Shown here: one piece after another, positions 3,663-40,586 of the stretch
Layout: each line of letters begins with the position of its first letter
Numbering within the stretch: position 1 is the stretch's first letter
NCBI RefSeq assembly: GCF_022843985.1
Contig: NZ_JALHMP010000032.1
Location: 1-48,145, forward strand
From: Phreatobacter sp.
GTDB lineage: Bacteria; Pseudomonadota; Alphaproteobacteria; Rhizobiales; Phreatobacteraceae
DNA length: 48,145 nt
Direction: 5' to 3'
Translations under genes and position numbers: made by a program
The notes under the pieces: model-generated
Database searches by the model: none
Told to the model about the DNA's origin: nothing
Seen by the model: only the letters and a program-made list of their open reading frames with translations

Positions 3663-3965
3663 ATGACGTTGCGTCCGCAAGATCGAACCAGGGCTGCAGC
3701 CGAAGCCATGGCGGCCGAGGCCCTCGCCTTTCTCGCCGGTGACGAGGACCGGCTGCAGCGCTTCGCCTCGCTGGCCGGGATCGATCTCGGCCAGATCCGC
3801 GACATCGCCGGACAGCCGGAATTCCTCACCGCGATCATGGACCATCTGATGGGCGACGAGCCGCTGCTTCTGGCCTTCGCCGCCCATGCGGGAGTCAAGC
3901 CGGAGGCGGTGGTGCGCGCCGCCCATGTGCTCGGTGCGGGTCCGTGGGAGCGGGATTTCGCCTGA
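3663..3965 (+). CDS. DUF3572 family protein
   Basis: 100-residue acidic, mostly helical protein of unknown function, matching the DUF3572 family that in Rhizobiales sits beside divK/pleD. No catalytic motif, signal peptide or membrane segment is visible. Characteristic stretches are [33 protein letters not shown] and the C-terminal [13 protein letters not shown] clear AAGGA ribosome-binding site lies 7 bp before the ATG. It is divergent from divK, with about 90 bp between the starts, so the two may share a regulatory region. dinB starts 49 bp after its stop. Confidence 0.85.
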
Positions 3966-4014
3966 TGCCAAAAGCCCCCTTGCTGAGGCCCGCCATCGCG
4001 TCCACGGTCCGCTC

Positions 4015-5277
4015 ATGGCCGCCTTCGCCTTCTGCCGCGACTGTCTGACGGAAGCCGCCCCGGGCGCCCAGCGCTGCCAGGCCTGCGGATCGCCGCGCAT
4101 CGCCCGGCATGCCGAGCTTGTCGGCCTCTCCATCGCCCATGTCGATTGCGACGCCTTCTATGCGGCGATCGAGAAGCGCGACGACCCCAGCCTGGTCGAC
4201 CGGGCGGTGATCATCGGCGGCGGCCGGCGCGGCGTCGTCTCGACCTGCTGCTACGTGGCGCGCATCCATGGCGTCCGGTCCGCCATGCCGATGTTCAAGG
4301 CGCTGCAGCTCTGCCCCGAGGCCGTGGTGATCAAGCCGAACATGGAAAAGTATGTCGGCGTCGGTCGTCAGGTGCACCAGGCGATGCTGGCGCTTACCCC
4401 GCTGGTCGAGCCGCTGTCCATCGACGAGGCCTTTCTCGACCTGACCGGCACCGAGCGGCTGCACGGCGCCGCACCCGCCATGGTGCTGGCCCGTTTCGCC
4501 AGGACTGTCGAGCGGGAGATCGGCATCACCGTCTCGGTCGGGCTGTCCTACAACAAGTTCCTTGCCAAGATCGCCTCGGACATGGACAAGCCGCGCGGTT
4601 TCGCCGCCATCGGTCGCGCCGAGGCGCTGGAATTCCTCGGATCGAAGCCGGTTTCGCTGATCTGGGGGGTCGGCCGCGCCACCCAGGAGGCGCTGGAGCG
4701 GGAGGGGTTCAGGCTGATCGCCGATCTGAGGCGGCTCGATGAGGGCGACCTCATGCGCCGCTTCGGCGCCATGGGCCTGAGGCTGTCGCGGCTGAGCCGG
4801 GGCATCGACGAGCGGCGCGTCTCGCCGGACAAGGAGACGAAATCGATCTCGGCCGAGACGACGTTCGACACGGACATCCGCGACGCGCGCACCCTCGAGA
4901 AGAAGCTTTTCCTGCTGTGCGAGAAGGTCTCGGCGCGGGCGAAGGCGCAAGGATTCGCCGGCACCACGGTGACGCTGAAGCTGAAGACGGCCGACTTCAA
5001 GATCCGCACGCGCTCGCGCGCCCTGCCCTCGCCGACGCTGCTCGCCACACGCCTGTTCGAGACCGGCCGGGACATGCTGATGAAGGAGGCCGACGGCACC
5101 GCCTACCGGCTCATCGGCATCGGTCTGTCCGAGCTCACCGACCCGGGACGCGCCGATCCCGCCGACCTCGTCGACCCCTCCATCGCCCGCAGCGTCAAGG
5201 TGGAGGGTGCCGTCGACGCCCTGCGGACCCGCTTCGGCAAGGCAGCCGTGGTCAAGGGCATCACCCTCGACGACTGA
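4015..5277 (+). CDS. dinB: DNA polymerase IV (Y-family, error-prone)
   Basis: 420-residue translesion polymerase that extends past damaged bases. Palm motifs are [12 protein letters not shown] (first metal-binding Asp) and [14 protein letters not shown] (catalytic DE); the thumb carries [10 protein letters not shown]. The C-terminal little finger ends near [13 protein letters not shown]. Before the polymerase core is a 40-residue extension with CRDC and CQAC, a four-cysteine arrangement like a zinc ribbon. It is absent from E. coli DinB but occurs in rhizobial homologues. The ATG at 4015 was chosen because upstream in-frame sequence overlaps the preceding gene. I found no GTTC-N7-GTTC LexA box directly upstream, and no terminal QL-type clamp motif is obvious. 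Confidence 0.94.
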
Positions 5278-5283
5278 CGCGGT

Positions 5284-6129
5284 TCAGGGCCGCGTGCAGG
5301 CCGTCTCCGGCTGCCATGCGAGGCTCGCCAGCTCACCGCGCAGGGAAAAATCGCCGTAATGGATGACGAGCTGGCGCGACACGCCGTTCTCGTAGAGCTC
5401 GAAGGCGATGGAATAGACCGGGGTGGCGCTGTCGCGGCCTTCCTCGAAATAGCTGATCGTCACCGGCCAGCGGGCAAGGGCCGCGAGTTTGGGATCGCGG
5501 GCGGCGACCTCGACCTCGCCGGCGCCCGGCGCGATCCGCCGGCCGATAATCGCCGTCGCATTGTAGAGTTTCTCGCCGGTCTCGGCGCCGTCATAGACCT
5601 TCGCCTCAAGAATGGTGTGGCCCTCGCGTGCCGCCGCGACCAGACGGATGAGATGTTCGGTGGGGAAGATCGCAGCGCGGTCGATCTGCTTGTTCAGGGG
5701 GCGCGGCCGCCGGACGACGACGCTCACCGCGTCCGGCCCGCGCGTCGCGGTGCCGTCCGTCTCGACCTTGGCGGCGCCGTTCTGGCTCGACTGGGAGGTG
5801 AAGCGGAAGCCGCTGCCGTCACCTTCCTCAAAATGGGCGGTGCGGACATCCATGACGACCCGGTCTCCGTTCATGGTCAGTTCGACCACCTGGCGGAAGG
5901 AGGTCGTGAAGCCCTCGCACCGGTTGCCGCCGGTCTCGAACAGGATGCGGCCGCGGGCCTGGTCGAGGCCGCGGGCCGGCCGCCGCGGGTCGAGGCTGAG
6001 ATCATAGATGGCCCGGTGCGGCGACAGGGTCGCGGGACCGGTCGCCTGGGCCTGAGCAGCGGCCGCGCCAGTTCCGACGAGGAGCAGACCGGCGACGGTT
6101 ATGGCGAACGCGGTGCGGATGACGGTCAT
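5284..6129 (-). CDS. eipB: EipB-type cell envelope integrity protein (DUF1849)
   Basis: 281-residue periplasmic protein. An N-terminal signal peptide (hydrophobic 7-24, cleavage around AQAQA) precedes one DUF1849 domain. The Brucella abortus family member EipB folds as a spiral beta-sheet with a single disulfide and is needed for envelope stress resistance. Here only two cysteines occur in the mature part, C71 and C278, almost exactly where the EipB disulfide lies. The start MTVIRTAF gives a compact signal peptide; an ATG five codons upstream is an alternative. It is convergent with dinB (6 bp between stops) and divergent from ridA. I am confident of the family; the envelope role is by homology. 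Confidence 0.9.
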   Translation of the reverse strand: MTVIRTAFAITVAGLLLVGTGAAAAQAQATGPATLSPHRAIYDLSLDPRRPARGLDQARGRILFETGGNRCEGFTTSFRQVVELTMNGDRVVMDVRTAHFEEGDGSGFRFTSQSSQNGAAKVETDGTATRGPDAVSVVVRRPRPLNKQIDRAAIFPTEHLIRLVAAAREGHTILEAKVYDGAETGEKLYNATAIIGRRIAPGAGEVEVAARDPKLAALARWPVTISYFEEGRDSATPVYSIAFELYENGVSRQLVIHYGDFSLRGELASLAWQPETACTRP

Positions 6130-7533: not shown

Positions 7534-8715
7534 ATGAGTTCCGCACCCTTCACGCTCCGCGTCGCGTCCAGCGTCGCGGATATCCCTGCCGATGTGTGGA
7601 ACGCCTGCGCGGCCGGGACATCGGGGAGCGTCGATCCGTTCCTCGACCATGCCTTCTTCCTCAGCCTGGAGGAGTCGCGCTCGGCCGTGCGGGAGACCGG
7701 CTGGCTGGGCCATCACCTGATCCTCGAGCGGGGCGAGGCGGTGGCGGCAATCATGCCCTGCTACCTCAAGAGCCATTCGCGCGGCGAATATGTCTTCGAC
7801 GGCGGCTGGGCCGAGGCCTATGAGCGCGCCGGCGGGCGCTACTATCCCAAGCTGCAGGCGAGCGTCCCCTTCACGCCGGCGACCGGACGCCGTCTCCTGG
7901 TGCGCGCGGGACCCGAGGCCGATCTCGCCCGGACGGCCCTGGTCCAGGGCGCGGCCCAGGTCGCGGTGCAAGCCGGGGTCTCTTCGCTCCATGTGACCTT
8001 CTGCCGGCAGGATGAATGGGAGCTGATGGCGGCGGCGGGCTATCTGCAGCGCAACGACACGCAGTTCCATTTCGAGAACGAGGGCTATGCGGTCTTCGAC
8101 GATTTTCTCGCCGCCCTGTCCTCGCGCAAGCGCAAGGTGATCCGGCGCGAGAGACGCGAGGCGCTCGAGGGCCGGGGCATCACCATCCGCTGGCTGACCG
8201 GCGCCGACCTCACCGAAGAGGTCTGGGACCGGTTCTATGCGTTCTACATCGATACCGGCTCACGCAAATGGGGTCGTCCCTACCTGACCCGGGCTTTCTA
8301 CTCCCTGATCGGCGCGCGGATGGCTGACCGGATCCTGCTGGTCATGGCGGAACGGGAGGGGCGTTACGTTGCCGGCGCCATCAATTTCATCGGCGAAGAG
8401 GTGCTCTATGGACGCCACTGGGGGGCGGTGGAGGAGCATCCGTTCCTGCATTTCGAGGTCTGCTATTATCAGGCCATCGACTACGCGATCCGCCACGGGC
8501 TGAAACGCGTCGAGGCCGGCGCACAGGGCGAGCACAAGCTGGCGCGCGGCTACAAGCCGGTGACCACCCACTCAGCCCATTTCATCGCCGATCGCGGCTT
8601 GCGCCGGGCGGTGGACGACTATCTCGCCCGCGAGCGCAGCTATATCGCCGAGGCCATCCAGGACCTTGGCGCGATGACACCGTTCCGACGTGCGTCCCTT
8701 GACGAGCAGGACTGA
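7534..8715 (+). CDS. FemAB-like GNAT family N-acetyltransferase (DUF482/COG3146)
   Basis: 393-residue cytosolic protein of the FemAB-like DUF482 family, a tandem GNAT-fold group distantly related to peptidoglycan amino-acyl transferases. Recognisable blocks are DPFLDHAFFLSLEES near residue 30, YVFDGGWAEAYERAGG near 90, KVIRRERREAL near 205, FYIDTGSRKWGRPYLTRAFY near 235, and GAQGEHKLARGY near 330, which is the most conserved family signature. The acceptor substrate is unknown for most members. It is the last gene of the ridA-GDPD operon. The next gene is convergent and ends 20 bp downstream. Confidence 0.9.
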   Translation: MSSAPFTLRVASSVADIPADVWNACAAGTSGSVDPFLDHAFFLSLEESRSAVRETGWLGHHLILERGEAVAAIMPCYLKSHSRGEYVFDGGWAEAYERAGGRYYPKLQASVPFTPATGRRLLVRAGPEADLARTALVQGAAQVAVQAGVSSLHVTFCRQDEWELMAAAGYLQRNDTQFHFENEGYAVFDDFLAALSSRKRKVIRRERREALEGRGITIRWLTGADLTEEVWDRFYAFYIDTGSRKWGRPYLTRAFYSLIGARMADRILLVMAEREGRYVAGAINFIGEEVLYGRHWGAVEEHPFLHFEVCYYQAIDYAIRHGLKRVEAGAQGEHKLARGYKPVTTHSAHFIADRGLRRAVDDYLARERSYIAEAIQDLGAMTPFRRASLDEQD

Positions 8716-8735: not shown

Positions 8736-9086
8736 CTACAGGTCGAGGCCGCCGAGCCCCTTGCCGATACTGCCGGCGACGTCGCCGACGCCGGACGCGA
8801 TGGTTCCAGCGGTCTCGATGGCGCCCGACGCCATGGCGCCGCCGGTCTCGAAGGCACCCGAGGTCAAGGTTCCGGCCGTCTGGGTGACGGTCGAGGCGGC
8901 GGATGCTGTCGCCTGCCCGACAGAGGACGCGGTACTGGCGACGACGTCGATGACGGTCGCTGCCACGTCGAGCCATCCGCCGGCATCGGCAGCCGCCTGG
9001 TCGGTCTTCTTCTTCTGCTGCTCGGCGTCCTGAGCCTCGGTCAGTGCTTCGGCGCCCGTCACCGCGGATTGGGGATCGATTGCCAC
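8736..9086 (-). CDS. Unknown Ala/Gly/Ser/Thr-rich protein with 11-residue repeats
   Basis: 116-residue protein I do not recognise. A charged N-terminal third (about 1-37, ending in a run of Gln, Lys and Asp) is followed by a low-complexity region rich in Ala, Gly, Ser and Thr. The clearest part is three successive 11-residue units: GAFETGGAMAS, GAIETAGTIAS, GVGDVAGSIGK. This pattern resembles the 11-mer amphipathic repeats of lipid-binding or LEA-like proteins and also glycine-zipper segments, but that is only a pattern resemblance. There is no signal peptide. The GTG start is well supported by a GAGGAGG ribosome-binding site about 6 bp upstream. It is divergent from the arginine-rich exported genes. 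Confidence 0.72.
   Translation of the reverse strand: MAIDPQSAVTGAEALTEAQDAEQQKKKTDQAAADAGGWLDVAATVIDVVASTASSVGQATASAASTVTQTAGTLTSGAFETGGAMASGAIETAGTIASGVGDVAGSIGKGLGGLDL
8794..8892. repeat. Imperfect 33-bp tandem repeat, three units
   Basis: Units begin at 8794, 8827 and 8860, each starting GA(C/G) and sharing a CGGTCTCGA-like core in the first two copies. They encode the 11-residue repeats of the minus-strand protein and keep its frame. The third unit is the most diverged. Confidence 0.65.
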
Positions 9087-9243: not shown

Positions 9244-9271
9244 TTGCAGCATTGTGAACGCCGGCTAAACC
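9244..9271 (+). promoter_or_regulatory. Possible promoter of the first arginine-rich gene
   Basis: TTGCAG (9244-9249) and TAAACC (9266-9271) with 16 bp spacing lie about 90 bp upstream of the start at 9360, in the 273-bp divergent region. Both boxes are imperfect. Confidence 0.28.
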
Positions 9272-9359
9272 TGCCGATATCAGCAGTTCAGGTCGACGGG
9301 ACCAGGATGCAGTCGAACCGGTCGAGACGGTTCGAACATGTCCACAAGGAGAAGGTCCC

Positions 9360-9608
9360 ATGTTGCATCGCCGCTCGTTCTTTGCCGCCCTCGCCGCCGG
9401 GGTCGCCGCCACCACCCTCGCTGCCACCGCCCAGGCCGCCCCGCTCGCCGACACGGTGACGGCGGCTGACACCCCCGAAGCTGCCGCCCTTCCCATTGCC
9501 GGCGAACCGCTGGAAATGCGGCGCCGCCACCGCCGCGCCCGCCGCGTGCTGCGTCGGACCCGCCGCCGGACCCGCCGCATCGTCCGCCGTGTCCGTCGCC
9601 GGGGCTGA
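9360..9608 (+). CDS. Tat-exported arginine-rich micro-protein (paralogue 1)
   Basis: 82-residue precursor of unknown function. The leader has a twin-arginine motif (HRRSFFAAL), a hydrophobic alanine-rich core and a signal peptidase site around TAQA/APLA (residue 26). The mature peptide has a short Ala/Pro/Thr linker, the motif AGEPLEM, and then a tail with 19 arginines among about 30 residues. The ATG is preceded by AAGGAGAAGG. Two more genes in the window share the same plan (9764-10015 and 24221-24481), and this one lies 155 bp before the second in the same direction. Such a cationic peptide could bind a polyanion (polyphosphate, DNA, lipopolysaccharide), but nothing in the sequence identifies a target. 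Confidence 0.8.
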   Translation: MLHRRSFFAALAAGVAATTLAATAQAAPLADTVTAADTPEAAALPIAGEPLEMRRRHRRARRVLRRTRRRTRRIVRRVRRRG

Positions 9609-9619
9609 TCCGCCCCCCC

Positions 9620-9648
9620 GCCCGGCGACACGACCGCGGTCGCCGGGC
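9620..9648 (+). terminator. Stem-loop after the first arginine-rich gene
   Basis: A 10-bp perfect GC-rich inverted repeat (9620-9629 with 9639-9648) lies 12 bp after the stop. No T-tract follows, so it may be an RNA-stabilising or weak terminating hairpin rather than a full intrinsic terminator. Confidence 0.5.
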
Positions 9649-9695
9649 GTCGACATTCAGAAACAGTCGCCTGACAGGGTTGCCACCGAAGCGAC

Positions 9696-9710
9696 TTGAC
9701 GTCGCGTCAA
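9696..9710. promoter_or_regulatory. Perfect palindrome TTGACG-TCG-CGTCAA upstream of paralogue 2
   Basis: A perfect inverted repeat of two 6-bp arms around three bases lies 54-68 bp before the start at 9764. The left arm doubles as a good -35 box (TTGACG). A repressor bound here would block the promoter. No known regulator is identified. Confidence 0.4.
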
Positions 9711-9763
9711 CCGGCGCAGCACTCTTCCCCCATGCGCCAGCACAGCCATCAGGAGGATTGAGA

Positions 9764-10015
9764 ATGATCCATCGTCGTACCTTCTTCGCCGCGGCCGCTG
9801 GGGCTGTCGCGGTCGCCGCCGCCGGCAGTGCTGCCCAGGCCGCTCCCGTTGCGCCGACGGCCACGGCTGCAGTGACGCCGGTGGTCGAGCAGCCCACCGA
9901 GATGCAGTATTACATCGTCCGCCGCCGCCGACGCTTCGTCTACCGCCCGCGGCGCGTCTACTACGTCCGCCGCCGCTTCGTTCGCCGCCGGTTCGTCCGG
10001 CGCTACTACTGGTGA
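9764..10015 (+). CDS. Tat-exported arginine/tyrosine-rich micro-protein (paralogue 2)
   Basis: 83-residue precursor, paralogous to the gene just upstream. Leader HRRTFFAAAAG carries the twin-arginine motif, with likely cleavage at AAQA/APVA (residue 27). The mature part has a Pro/Thr/Val linker, the motif EQPTEM, and a tail of 16 arginines alternating with tyrosine, valine and phenylalanine, including the repeated block RRRFV and a terminal RRYYW. A strong AGGAGGA ribosome-binding site precedes the ATG, which supports this start over upstream in-frame codons. A strong terminator follows 35 bp after the stop. The tyrosine content separates it from paralogue 1, so targets or cross-linking behaviour could differ. 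Function unknown. Confidence 0.82.
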   Translation: MIHRRTFFAAAAGAVAVAAAGSAAQAAPVAPTATAAVTPVVEQPTEMQYYIVRRRRRFVYRPRRVYYVRRRFVRRRFVRRYYW

Positions 10016-10050
10016 CCGCGCGCGGCTTGACGCCGCGCCTCGCGATTGCG

Positions 10051-10083
10051 ACACCCTCGCGGACCGGTTCGCGAGGGTGTTTT
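10051..10083 (+). terminator. Intrinsic terminator abutting the HIT gene start
   Basis: An 11-bp perfect stem (10051-10061 with 10070-10080), 8-nt loop, then TTT. It terminates paralogue 2, but its last T lies one base before the HIT ATG at 10085. The only Shine-Dalgarno-like sequence for HIT (GAGGG, 10073-10077) is inside the right arm. Confidence 0.85.
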
Positions 10084-10084
10084 C

Positions 10085-10531
10085 ATGTCGACCACCGCCT
10101 ATGATCCCAACAATGTCTTCGCCAAGATCCTGCGTGGCGAGATGCCGGCCCAGAAGGTCTATGAGACCGATAAGGTGCTGGCCTTCATGGACATCATGCC
10201 GCGCGCGGATGGCCATGTGCTGGTGATTCCGAAGGCCGCCGCCCGCAACATCCTCGACATTCACCCCGACGATCTGGCCGATCTCTCCCGCGCCGTGCAA
10301 TTCGTCGCCAAGGGCGTCAAGCGCGCCATGGCGGCCGATGGACTGACGATCCAGCAGTTCAACGAGACAGCCGGCGGACAGGTGGTCTTCCATATCCACG
10401 TTCACGTGCTGCCGCGCTGGACGGGTGTCGCGCTGCGGCCGCATACCGGCGCCATGGAAAATGCCGAGGTTCTGGCGACCCATGCCGCCACCATCCGTGC
10501 CGCACTGGAGGCCATGCAGGCCGGCGGCTGA
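10085..10531 (+). CDS. HIT family protein (histidine triad hydrolase)
   Basis: 148-residue cytosolic protein of the HIT superfamily, close to the Hint branch, which hydrolyses nucleoside phosphoramidates and similar nucleotide conjugates. The catalytic triad motif HIHVHVLPRW lies at 103-112. The N-terminus NVFAKILRGEMPAQKVYE and the core VLVIPK are typical. The chosen ATG gives the normal family start; it directly follows a terminator hairpin, so translation or transcription may be unusually controlled. The convergent azlD gene ends at the adjacent base. The physiological substrate is unknown. Confidence 0.95.
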   Translation: MSTTAYDPNNVFAKILRGEMPAQKVYETDKVLAFMDIMPRADGHVLVIPKAAARNILDIHPDDLADLSRAVQFVAKGVKRAMAADGLTIQQFNETAGGQVVFHIHVHVLPRWTGVALRPHTGAMENAEVLATHAATIRAALEAMQAGG

Positions 10532-24220: not shown

Positions 24221-24481
24221 TTACCAGCCGCGGCGATAGGTACGACGGCGCCAGTAGCGCCGCCGCTGGCGGCGGGTGCGCCAATCCCGGCGGTAGGCGC
24301 CGCGGCTGCGAGGGCGCAGCACACGGCCGCGCGGGTTCTGTTCGGACTGCATCTCGATGGGGGCACCGGCAACCGGCACGGAGGCCACGGTTTCCGCATG
24401 GGCGACGCTCGACGTGCCGCCGGCCGTGGCGAGGGCGGCGAGGCCCGCGATCGTTCCGAAGAACAGTCGTCTGCTGGTCAT
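24221..24481 (-). CDS. Tat-exported arginine-rich micro-protein (paralogue 3)
   Basis: 86-residue precursor with the same plan as the genes at 9360 and 9764. It has a twin-arginine leader (SRRLFFGTIAG), a hydrophobic core and a cleavage site near VAHA/ETVA (residue 29). The motif VAGAPIEM corresponds to AGEPLEM in paralogue 1. The tail has 18 arginines plus tryptophan and tyrosine and ends RRGW. An AAGGAGA ribosome-binding site precedes the ATG. It is unlinked to the other two copies (about 14 kb away), which argues for a dispersed family rather than a recent local duplication. It is divergent from the DUF2937 gene. Function unknown. Confidence 0.8.
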   Translation of the reverse strand: MTSRRLFFGTIAGLAALATAGGTSSVAHAETVASVPVAGAPIEMQSEQNPRGRVLRPRSRGAYRRDWRTRRQRRRYWRRRTYRRGW

Positions 24482-24643
24482 GAGAGTCTCCTTGGATGAT
24501 CGTGACGGCTGCGATGGCAGTCGTGCGGCCGCATGTGGCGGCAGAACCGGAACGCATGGCGGCGGACTTTGTTCAATTTCGGCGGAAGCGCGTGCCGCGC
24601 GCGCCCCTCTCCGCCATGGCCGGCAAACATCTGAGAAGCCCGC

Positions 24644-36551: not shown

Positions 36552-37079
36552 TCAGAACGGAATCTCGTCATCGTCCATCGGACGGCCGCCTGCAGGCGCA
36601 GCGGACCGCCGCGGCGCTTCCGCTCGCCCCCCGCCGGAACGGCCCTCGATGGCGCCGCCGCCGAAACCACCGCCGCCACCGAAGCTGTCGTCGCCATAGT
36701 CGGCGCCGCCACCGCCGCCGCCACCGCCGCGGCTGTCGAGGAGAACCATTTCACCGCGGAACCGCTGCAACACCACCTCGGTCGAATATTTCTCGACGCC
36801 CGACTGGTCCGTCCATTTGCGGGTCTGGAGCTGCCCCTCGACATAGACCTTCGAGCCCTTCTTCAGGTACTGCTCGGCCACTTTCGTCAGATTGTCGTTA
36901 AAGATGACGACCTGGTGCCACTCGGTGCGCTCCTTGCGCTCGCCCGAGGCCTTGTCGCGCCATGTCTCGGTGGTGGCGAGGCGCAGGTTGCACACCTGCT
37001 CGCCGTTGTTCAGCCGACGGATCTCGGGATCACGGCCCAGATTGCCGATCAGGATGACCTTGTTGACGCTGCCTGCCAT
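36552..37079 (-). CDS. ssb: Single-stranded DNA-binding protein
   Basis: 175-residue SSB. The OB fold spans about 1-110 ([41 protein letters not shown]). A glycine-rich linker follows, including a run of nine glycines, then the acidic tip DDDEIPF that recruits repair and replication partners. The ATG at 37079 (MAGSVNKV) is the family start; the frame is open for 45 codons upstream, but that sequence is unrelated. It is divergent from uvrA with a LexA box in between, the standard SOS arrangement. Confidence 0.97.
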
Positions 37080-37224
37080 CGTCGCTCTCCCCTTCCCCGC
37101 GGCCATGGCCCGGGGCGCCTTGCGCTCACATCCAGCCTGACGCTTCCCATGTTCCAGACGCCGCGTCACGGTGCCGGCCGGCAATTCGGGGACTATTCCC
37201 CAGCTTCGCGTCATCGGCCCTATC

Positions 37225-37239
37225 GTTCCTTATTTGTTC
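37225..37239. promoter_or_regulatory. LexA (SOS) box, GTTC-N7-GTTC
   Basis: GTTC at 37225-37228 and GTTC at 37236-37239 with exactly seven bases between, the alphaproteobacterial LexA consensus. It lies 146 bp before the ssb start and in the ssb-uvrA divergent region. On the ssb strand a TTGCCG sequence about 17 bp away would place the box over the -10 region. Confidence 0.88.

Positions 37240-37664: not shown

Positions 37665-40586
<2,922 letters not shown>

Follow-up and report, generated by a model that had tools for sequence, protein, structure and literature searches.

The three small arginine-rich genes found in the window, by which we mean the whole stretch of 48,145 nucleotides of Phreatobacter sp. 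DNA analysed here, belong to a real and unnamed protein family that is expanded within the genus and new in detail. Exported low-complexity basic proteins of Hyphomicrobiales are a kind that already has named members, e.g. BA14K. The members of the new family share one plan, consisting of a leader with an arginine pair (RR), a short linker, an E-M junction and an arginine-rich tail; they exclude lysine, and part of the family carries stress-type promoter motifs. The family thereby provides a natural series from environmental bacteria, in which one fixed leader and junction is combined with Arg tails that differ mainly in the partner residue (Tyr, Trp, His, Gly or Val). This series allows one to ask which role Arg-aromatic low-complexity chains play outside the cytoplasm and for what reason Lys is excluded, and whether such chains shed light on further exported basic proteins of Hyphomicrobiales that are still uncharacterised, among them the BA14K relatives.

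The Three Genes of the Window

The preliminary description of this DNA had reported genes A, B and C with the coordinates, precursor lengths and arginine counts given in Table 1, each with an RRxFF leader, and all of these features are present in the sequence. As read from the sequence, the leader motifs are HRRSFF (A), HRRTFF (B) and SRRLFF (C), and the junctions are AGEPLEM, EQPTEM and AGAPIEM, respectively, exactly as they had been described. The predicted cleavage site, which had been placed at residue 26-29, corresponds to AxA sites after residue 26 in A, 26 in B and 29 in C, and the ribosome-binding sites that had been called strong were found as AAGGAG (A), AGGAGG (B) and AAGGAG (C) just 5′ of the three starts. 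Genes A and B are flanked by a GNAT-like gene (7534-8715) and a HIT-family gene (10085-10531), names which, like ssb and uvrA below, were read from the translations without a database match. Gene C is located 14 kb from the pair on the minus strand. The ORF beside the pair (8736-9086, minus strand) encodes a low-complexity protein of 116 aa rich in Ala, Gly, Ser and Thr, with repeats such as SGAFETGGAMASGAIETAG.

Table 1: Coordinates of genes A, B and C, their parts and the signals around them, in positions of the window.
Feature	Position	Strand	Remarks
Conserved element 5′ of gene A, TGAAC-N6-TAAAC ... GTTCAG	9255..9291	+	few changes among 11 aligned group A upstream regions
Gene A	9360..9608	+	82-aa precursor, 19 R, nearly pure Arg tail; counterpart (orthologue or positional) in 12/12 genus genomes searched
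Gene A leader, MLHRRSFF...AQA, Tat-like	9360..9437	+	RR retained in 76/81 profile hits
Gene A Arg tail, downstream of E-M junction	9519..9605	+	
Hairpin 3′ of gene A, strong, terminator-like, without T-run	9619..9649	+	-27.1 kcal/mol, z -3.6
Conserved element 5′ of gene B, CGAAGCG..TTGACG	9688..9701	+	9/9 aligned upstream regions
Gene B	9764..10015	+	83-aa precursor, 16 R, Arg/Tyr/Phe/Val tail
Gene B Arg/aromatic tail	9905..10012	+	dN 0.01, dS 0.35 vs G003
Intrinsic-terminator-like hairpin into T-run, 3′ of gene B	10050..10081	+	fold of 10040-10090: -26.7 kcal/mol, z -4.1
Gene C	24221..24481	-	86-aa precursor, 18 R, Arg/Trp/Tyr tail; 7-member group in 12 genus genomes
Predicted sigma-EcfG-type motif of gene C, GAAC-N16-CGTT	24551..24574	-	93 bp 5′ of start; 7/7 group members

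A Genus-Wide Multicopy Family

The third, dispersed copy mentioned in the preliminary description does exist but is not the last one. Four more copies were detected outside the window, at C42:2858, C8:43790 and C23:1263 and, as a Gly/Arg-rich variant, at the end of contig C34, and the window's own genome (G000) contains at least seven. The Gly/Arg-rich paralogue runs off the end of C34, and contig C23 begins (10-177) with sequence that corresponds to the latter half of a profile built from Cys-ended members; repeats of family genes may have broken the assembly at these points.

A profile search, which had been proposed earlier as a check of conservation, demonstrated that the family is present throughout the genus. 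Profile A2 yielded 81 matches with E up to 1e-4, distributed over all 12 genus genomes searched with six to eight matches each. RR was found in 76 of these hits (within the first 12 residues in 75, further in in one), and the junction was EM in 77 and DM in three, being absent from one; the profiles were built from members initially chosen by their RR and EM pattern, which favours such matches. The five hits without RR comprise three proteins with Sec-like leaders, one (G002:C16) with an unclear start and one at a contig start that looks damaged or misread. Many of the paralogues located elsewhere in the genomes have a C-terminal end resembling RRCWINRWGERVCR with two Cys.

The tandem arrangement of A and B is likewise conserved. 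An array was present in all 12 genus genomes, comprising two genes in nine of them, three in G006 and four in G002 and G008. It adjoins the HIT orthologue in 12 of 12 genomes and the GNAT-like orthologue in 11, the contig of G009 ending before this gene. This conservation of the array beside the same neighbours is more than chance. When 80 loci sharing the GNAT-like neighbour gene were inspected, the family plan was found within the flanks of three (L117, L118 and L119), some of the flanks being short; these loci are from the same genomes as G003, G011 and G002 and are not independent evidence.

The junction also occurs on other leaders. Four out of the five relatives with Sec leaders seen in the genus, one of them in the window's own genome, carry a P-(V/I)-E-M-Q-R-R junction. 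L116 (G000:C8:10616-10969) combines a Sec-like leader with the junction GQPIEMQRRGGGFRGG, followed by a hydrophobic stretch and an end that contains Cys, and presents the same junction on another leader; similar proteins were observed in G008, G004 and G011.

Selection and Composition of the Tails

All four orthologue groups compared (A to D) are under purifying selection, which identifies the three ORFs of the window as real genes; with at least seven copies in one genome, these are members of a genus-wide multicopy family of real genes. Between G000 and G003, the tail of gene B showed 1.0 replacement in 79.7 sites versus 8.0 synonymous changes in 28.3 sites, and values of 1.0 in 124.5 and 12.0 in 37.5 were obtained for group D. 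In the tail of gene A, 8.0 replacements in 58.2 sites were obtained versus 6.0 synonymous changes in 28.8 sites (G000 versus G003). The tail had a lower dN/dS ratio than the leader and linker in 12 out of 15 comparisons from groups B (4/6), C (4/5) and D (4/4) but in only two out of six from group A (0.27-0.63 among G000, G003 and G009), all of these values being derived from small genes with small counts and without a significance test. The opposite direction, with a tail ratio that was not lower, was observed in group B for G005-G010 and G007-G001 and in group C for G007-G001. Based on this distribution, the sequence of the tail is retained in most of groups B, C and D, whereas in group A it seems to be mainly the Arg richness that is kept. 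Strongly divergent tails were found in group A for G011-G004 and in group B for G005-G010, and between some orthologues the tail length varies by short units, e.g. by 4 residues in group B.

Lysine is nearly absent from the proteins: the 81 profile hits contain 6 Lys versus 1561 Arg in 8170 residues, compared to 243 Lys and 500 Arg in eight hand-picked ordinary genes of the window. In the 59 tails with low Gly content, Arg accounts for 45.6%, Tyr for 11.5%, Trp for 7.7% and Val for 6.0% of the residues. The partner residues (Tyr, Trp, Phe, Val, His and Gly) interrupt the Arg runs mostly one or two at a time, and beyond the first two lags only weak Arg periodicities were detected in the tails. 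Averaged over 75 proteins, the net charge is -1.2 for the linker and +16.1 for the tail.

Transcription Signals

Genes A and B are probably transcribed separately, since a hairpin follows each of them in the sequence and gene B is preceded by a conserved element of its own (Table 1). Upstream of gene A, GAAC-N7-AAAC was found to be exact in eight out of 11 aligned group A upstream regions, and both arms of the hairpin downstream of the gene are conserved in nine out of nine aligned sequences.

Stress-type promoter motifs were evaluated for 79 copies, two of the 81 members being left out as they have too little upstream sequence. The pattern GAAC-N16,17-[CG]GTT, representing the sigma-EcfG consensus GAAC-N16,17-C/GGTT as given in PMC4814048, was present within 130 bp upstream of 25 of the 79 copies compared to 9 out of 347 ORFs in the background set (p 2e-13; narrower variants of the pattern, 12/79 versus 2/347 and 20/79 versus 2/347), and GTTC-N7-GTTC, the alphaproteobacterial LexA consensus as given in PMC3091678 (GTTCN7GTTC), in 9 of 79 compared to 4 of 347 (p 7e-5; within 150 bp, 11/79 versus 6/345). 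Both p-values are overstated: the patterns were fixed after viewing the upstream regions with several variants tried, the regions of related members do not count as independent observations, and the controls were six-frame ORFs taken mechanically, of which many are not genes. In the group of gene C, the seven members of which were assigned by us, the EcfG-type motif is located at -91 to -94 within one conserved block in five members and at -74 in the other two. The nine LexA-type boxes belong to group D (five out of five members with enough sequence) and group E (four out of seven), and all are located at -61 to -66; group D is represented in the window's own genome by C42:2858-3091. Five of the 25 copies with the EcfG pattern also carry a LexA-type box, the two patterns overlapping or adjoining each other, and these double matches may represent one signal only.

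Judging from these motifs, several paralogues including gene C appear to be under control of the general stress response and others under SOS control. Neither an EcfG nor a strict LexA site was found upstream of the members of the two groups to which the pair belongs (0/12 in group A, one of them with only seven upstream bases, and 0/9 in group B); the link to stress therefore rests on the paralogues and on gene C. How often a LexA-type box may arise by chance is visible within the window, where two of three boxes are found within coding sequence, at 5869 and, in gene B itself, at 9980. The third one, GTTCCTTATTTGTTC at 37225-37239, is intergenic and located between ssb (36552-37214, minus strand) and uvrA (37665-40586, plus strand), as expected for alphaproteobacterial SOS genes.

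Leader and Export

The preliminary description had assigned the leaders to the Tat pathway. In favour of this, an RR-x-F/L motif is present at the leader start in all three window proteins and TatC is encoded in the window's genome; the curated Tat model PF10518, however, matched gene A only below the cut-off (E 0.088) and gave no match for B and C. Compared to the Tat consensus S-R-R-x-F-L-K given in PMC5539426, the position three residues past the first R is occupied by F in 60 and by L in 16 of the 76 RR members, and RR is preceded in most cases by D or H instead of S. An AxA motif within residues 19-40 was detected in 76 out of 76 RR members, which is an easy test since the leaders are Ala-rich. 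Against Tat, the c-regions contain zero Arg or Lys. The peak 12-residue mean of the h-region was 2.10 (sd 0.20, range 1.78-2.62, n = 76) versus 2.23-2.64 in seven hand-picked Sec-like leaders of relatives; the ranges overlap, and the difference does no more than lean towards Tat. As the avoidance of Lys turns any basic n-region into an Arg-containing one, RR is weaker evidence for Tat in this family than it would otherwise be. Taking these leader features together, we consider export by any route highly probable and export via Tat likely.

Relatives and Known Families

No match above the cut-off was obtained in Pfam and NCBIfam for the three window proteins or for 10 paralogues. Among the weak hits below the cut-off, the best was that of one paralogue to the GRP model PF07172, with E 1.5e-6 and 29.1 bits versus a cut-off of 30, which was attributed to Gly composition. 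A search of solved structures with E up to 0.1 yielded none, and gene B had no match among plasmids (BLAST with the low-complexity filter on). In the literature searched, with most subscription papers outside reach, no description of this family was found.

Within the order, 37 matches with E up to 1e-4 were detected in 34 out of 285 other genomes. Seventeen of these, namely, those with loci except L103, were translated; 11 have an RR leader and an Arg-rich tail, and six have a Sec-like leader, among them L097 and L099, which contain the Pfam domain BA14K (7.3e-14 and 4.2e-12, respectively). On the strength of these matches, the family is not wholly isolated but has distant cousins across the order, two of them with BA14K. 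The earlier statement that no described family follows this plan holds with respect to Pfam and NCBIfam matches above the cut-off and is qualified by these cousins. Neither the conservation of the tails nor the stress-type promoter motifs of the paralogues had been noticed in the preliminary description. L094, an RR/Arg-tail relative from another family of the order, has a strict LexA-type box (GTTCACCGCGCGTTC) at -71 from the start of the match. Beyond the order, the genomes sampled contained no convincing relative. Among the matches listed, profile A3 hit two of 289 genomes class-wide, G000 itself and G327, the latter with a 324-aa protein that was judged unrelated, and profile A2 hit two of 385 with E up to 1e-6, G000 and G091 from the same order.

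Three other known systems resemble the family in part. Asr of E. coli (NF033636), a small, exported, disordered envelope-stress protein, is rich in Lys and Ala, whereas the Arg-tailed proteins are nearly Lys-free; NF033636 gave no hit to the window proteins, and among the 10 paralogues it reached only one (from G008) with E 0.068 and 13.9 bits versus a cut-off of 50. DUF1127 proteins, which are small and Arg-rich and belong to the same class, are shorter and not known to have a signal peptide, and this domain was absent from the Pfam hits of the window proteins with E up to 1. The Gly-rich repeat peptides of the GRRM radical-SAM family have Gly/Arg repeats in common with some paralogues. A GRRM-type RiPP precursor was rejected, as GrrM (TIGR04261) had no match in the window's genome; among the 12 genomes searched for it (eight of the genus, including the window's own), two gave matches, none over the cut-off, and the Gly-rich-repeat models of NCBIfam did not hit any of the 10 paralogues.

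Proposed Function and Alternatives

We give even chances to the proposal that the family consists of Tat-exported polycations that bind anionic polymers of the envelope under stress. The RRxF leader would direct export of the precursor, most likely via Tat, and signal peptidase would cleave at the AxA site. The resulting mature chain would consist of a short neutral or slightly acidic Pro/Ala linker, the E-M(Q) junction and a tail with a mean net charge of +16. This tail might function by its composition, with guanidinium groups holding phosphates and carboxylates and aromatic partners contributing cation-pi and stacking contacts, and might bind and cross-link anionic polymers of the envelope or outside the cell (lipid A/LPS, acidic exopolysaccharide, DNA), resulting in a stabilised envelope. 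The general stress response would induce some paralogues including gene C, and the SOS response others. A role at the envelope is suggested by the stress-type promoters of the paralogues and by Asr and BA14K as precedents. We further infer that the chain is disordered in the cell; the AlphaFold model of gene B, calculated with a 12-row alignment, has no confident fold (mean pLDDT 59.6, pTM 0.23), and its tail was predicted as low-confidence helices, not coil.

A more far-reaching version of this proposal, which we consider doubtful, would regard the proteins as Lys-free Arg/aromatic "polycation glues", with paralogues distributed over different stress regulons (general, SOS and others for the pair), which partly replace divalent cations in the bridging of LPS and in which selection acts on composition more than on sequence. 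A link to low-ion water is speculation based solely on the origin of P. oligotrophus from ultrapure water, as stated in the title of a work cited by PMC11411728.

Several alternatives to envelope-binding polycations were considered. The tails could represent cationic antimicrobial peptides that are freed outside the cell and kill or inhibit neighbours. Several consist almost entirely of R/W or R/Y, e.g. RRRYWRRRYWRRRYYW. LexA-type boxes, present in 9 of the 79 copies and confined to groups D and E, suggest SOS control, which would be compatible with a bacteriocin-like role. This appears unlikely, however, as the hairpins after A and B suggest single-gene transcripts and inspection of the ORF list did not reveal any obvious gene for immunity, a protease or an exporter next to the pair. 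In addition, the Gly- and His-rich tails of the same family do not fit an antimicrobial function, and gene B tails are conserved rather than diversified in most comparisons.

It is likewise improbable that the proteins are lectin-like or adhesive surface proteins of the BA14K-like type (PF07886, Hyphomicrobiales), in which an Arg tail binds a sugar or surface and the BA14K domain itself has been lost. Such proteins are also small with a signal peptide, and in L097 (LQEVRW) and L099 (VQTVRD) a short, comparable junction and an Arg-rich stretch precede BA14K, a likeness that was judged by eye and may be inflated by composition; the junction of the Sec-leader relatives in the genus points in the same direction. 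According to PMC12354254, ba14K is among the three genes most strongly activated by sigma-EcfG in B. abortus, and gene C is predicted to be a target likewise. In contrast, the window proteins have neither a C-terminal BA14K domain (no hit with E up to 1) nor a hydrophobic segment past the tail, and their leader is of the RR and not of the Sec-like type. For the lectin-like activity of BA14K itself, the sources are the title of a cited reference and an entry in a table.

A structural or condensate-forming protein that coats a granule or matrix in the periplasm or on the surface, comparable to sulfur globule proteins or RGG proteins, would be consistent with the low-complexity, RGG-box-like and R/Y/W-rich tails, which vary among paralogues, and with the short units by which the tails of orthologues differ in length. 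Nevertheless, no granule system is suggested by the neighbourhoods inspected, in which most neighbours are unannotated, and we regard a coat function as improbable, too.

Still less probable is a non-exported protein, i.e., a membrane-tethered or cytoplasmic, protamine-like binder of nucleic acids that is induced by stress. Arg runs would suit nucleic acids, and PMC12354254 lists dps, together with ba14K, among the top EcfG targets of B. abortus; this is opposed by the leader with RR, hydrophobic stretch and AxA in all 76 RR members and by the Sec-leader relatives with a similar junction and basic stretch. Finally, the idea of spurious low-complexity ORFs in a GC-rich genome, in which CGC-rich DNA gives Arg-rich frames and long ORFs are also found on the opposite strand, is close to refuted by the synonymous excess, the ribosome-binding sites, the conserved flanking signals and the array that is syntenic in 12 out of 12 genus genomes.

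Apart from this family, the ORF at 3886-5277 of the window encodes, according to its translation, a DNA polymerase IV-like protein, the N-terminal part of which shows a zinc-ribbon-like Cys pattern.
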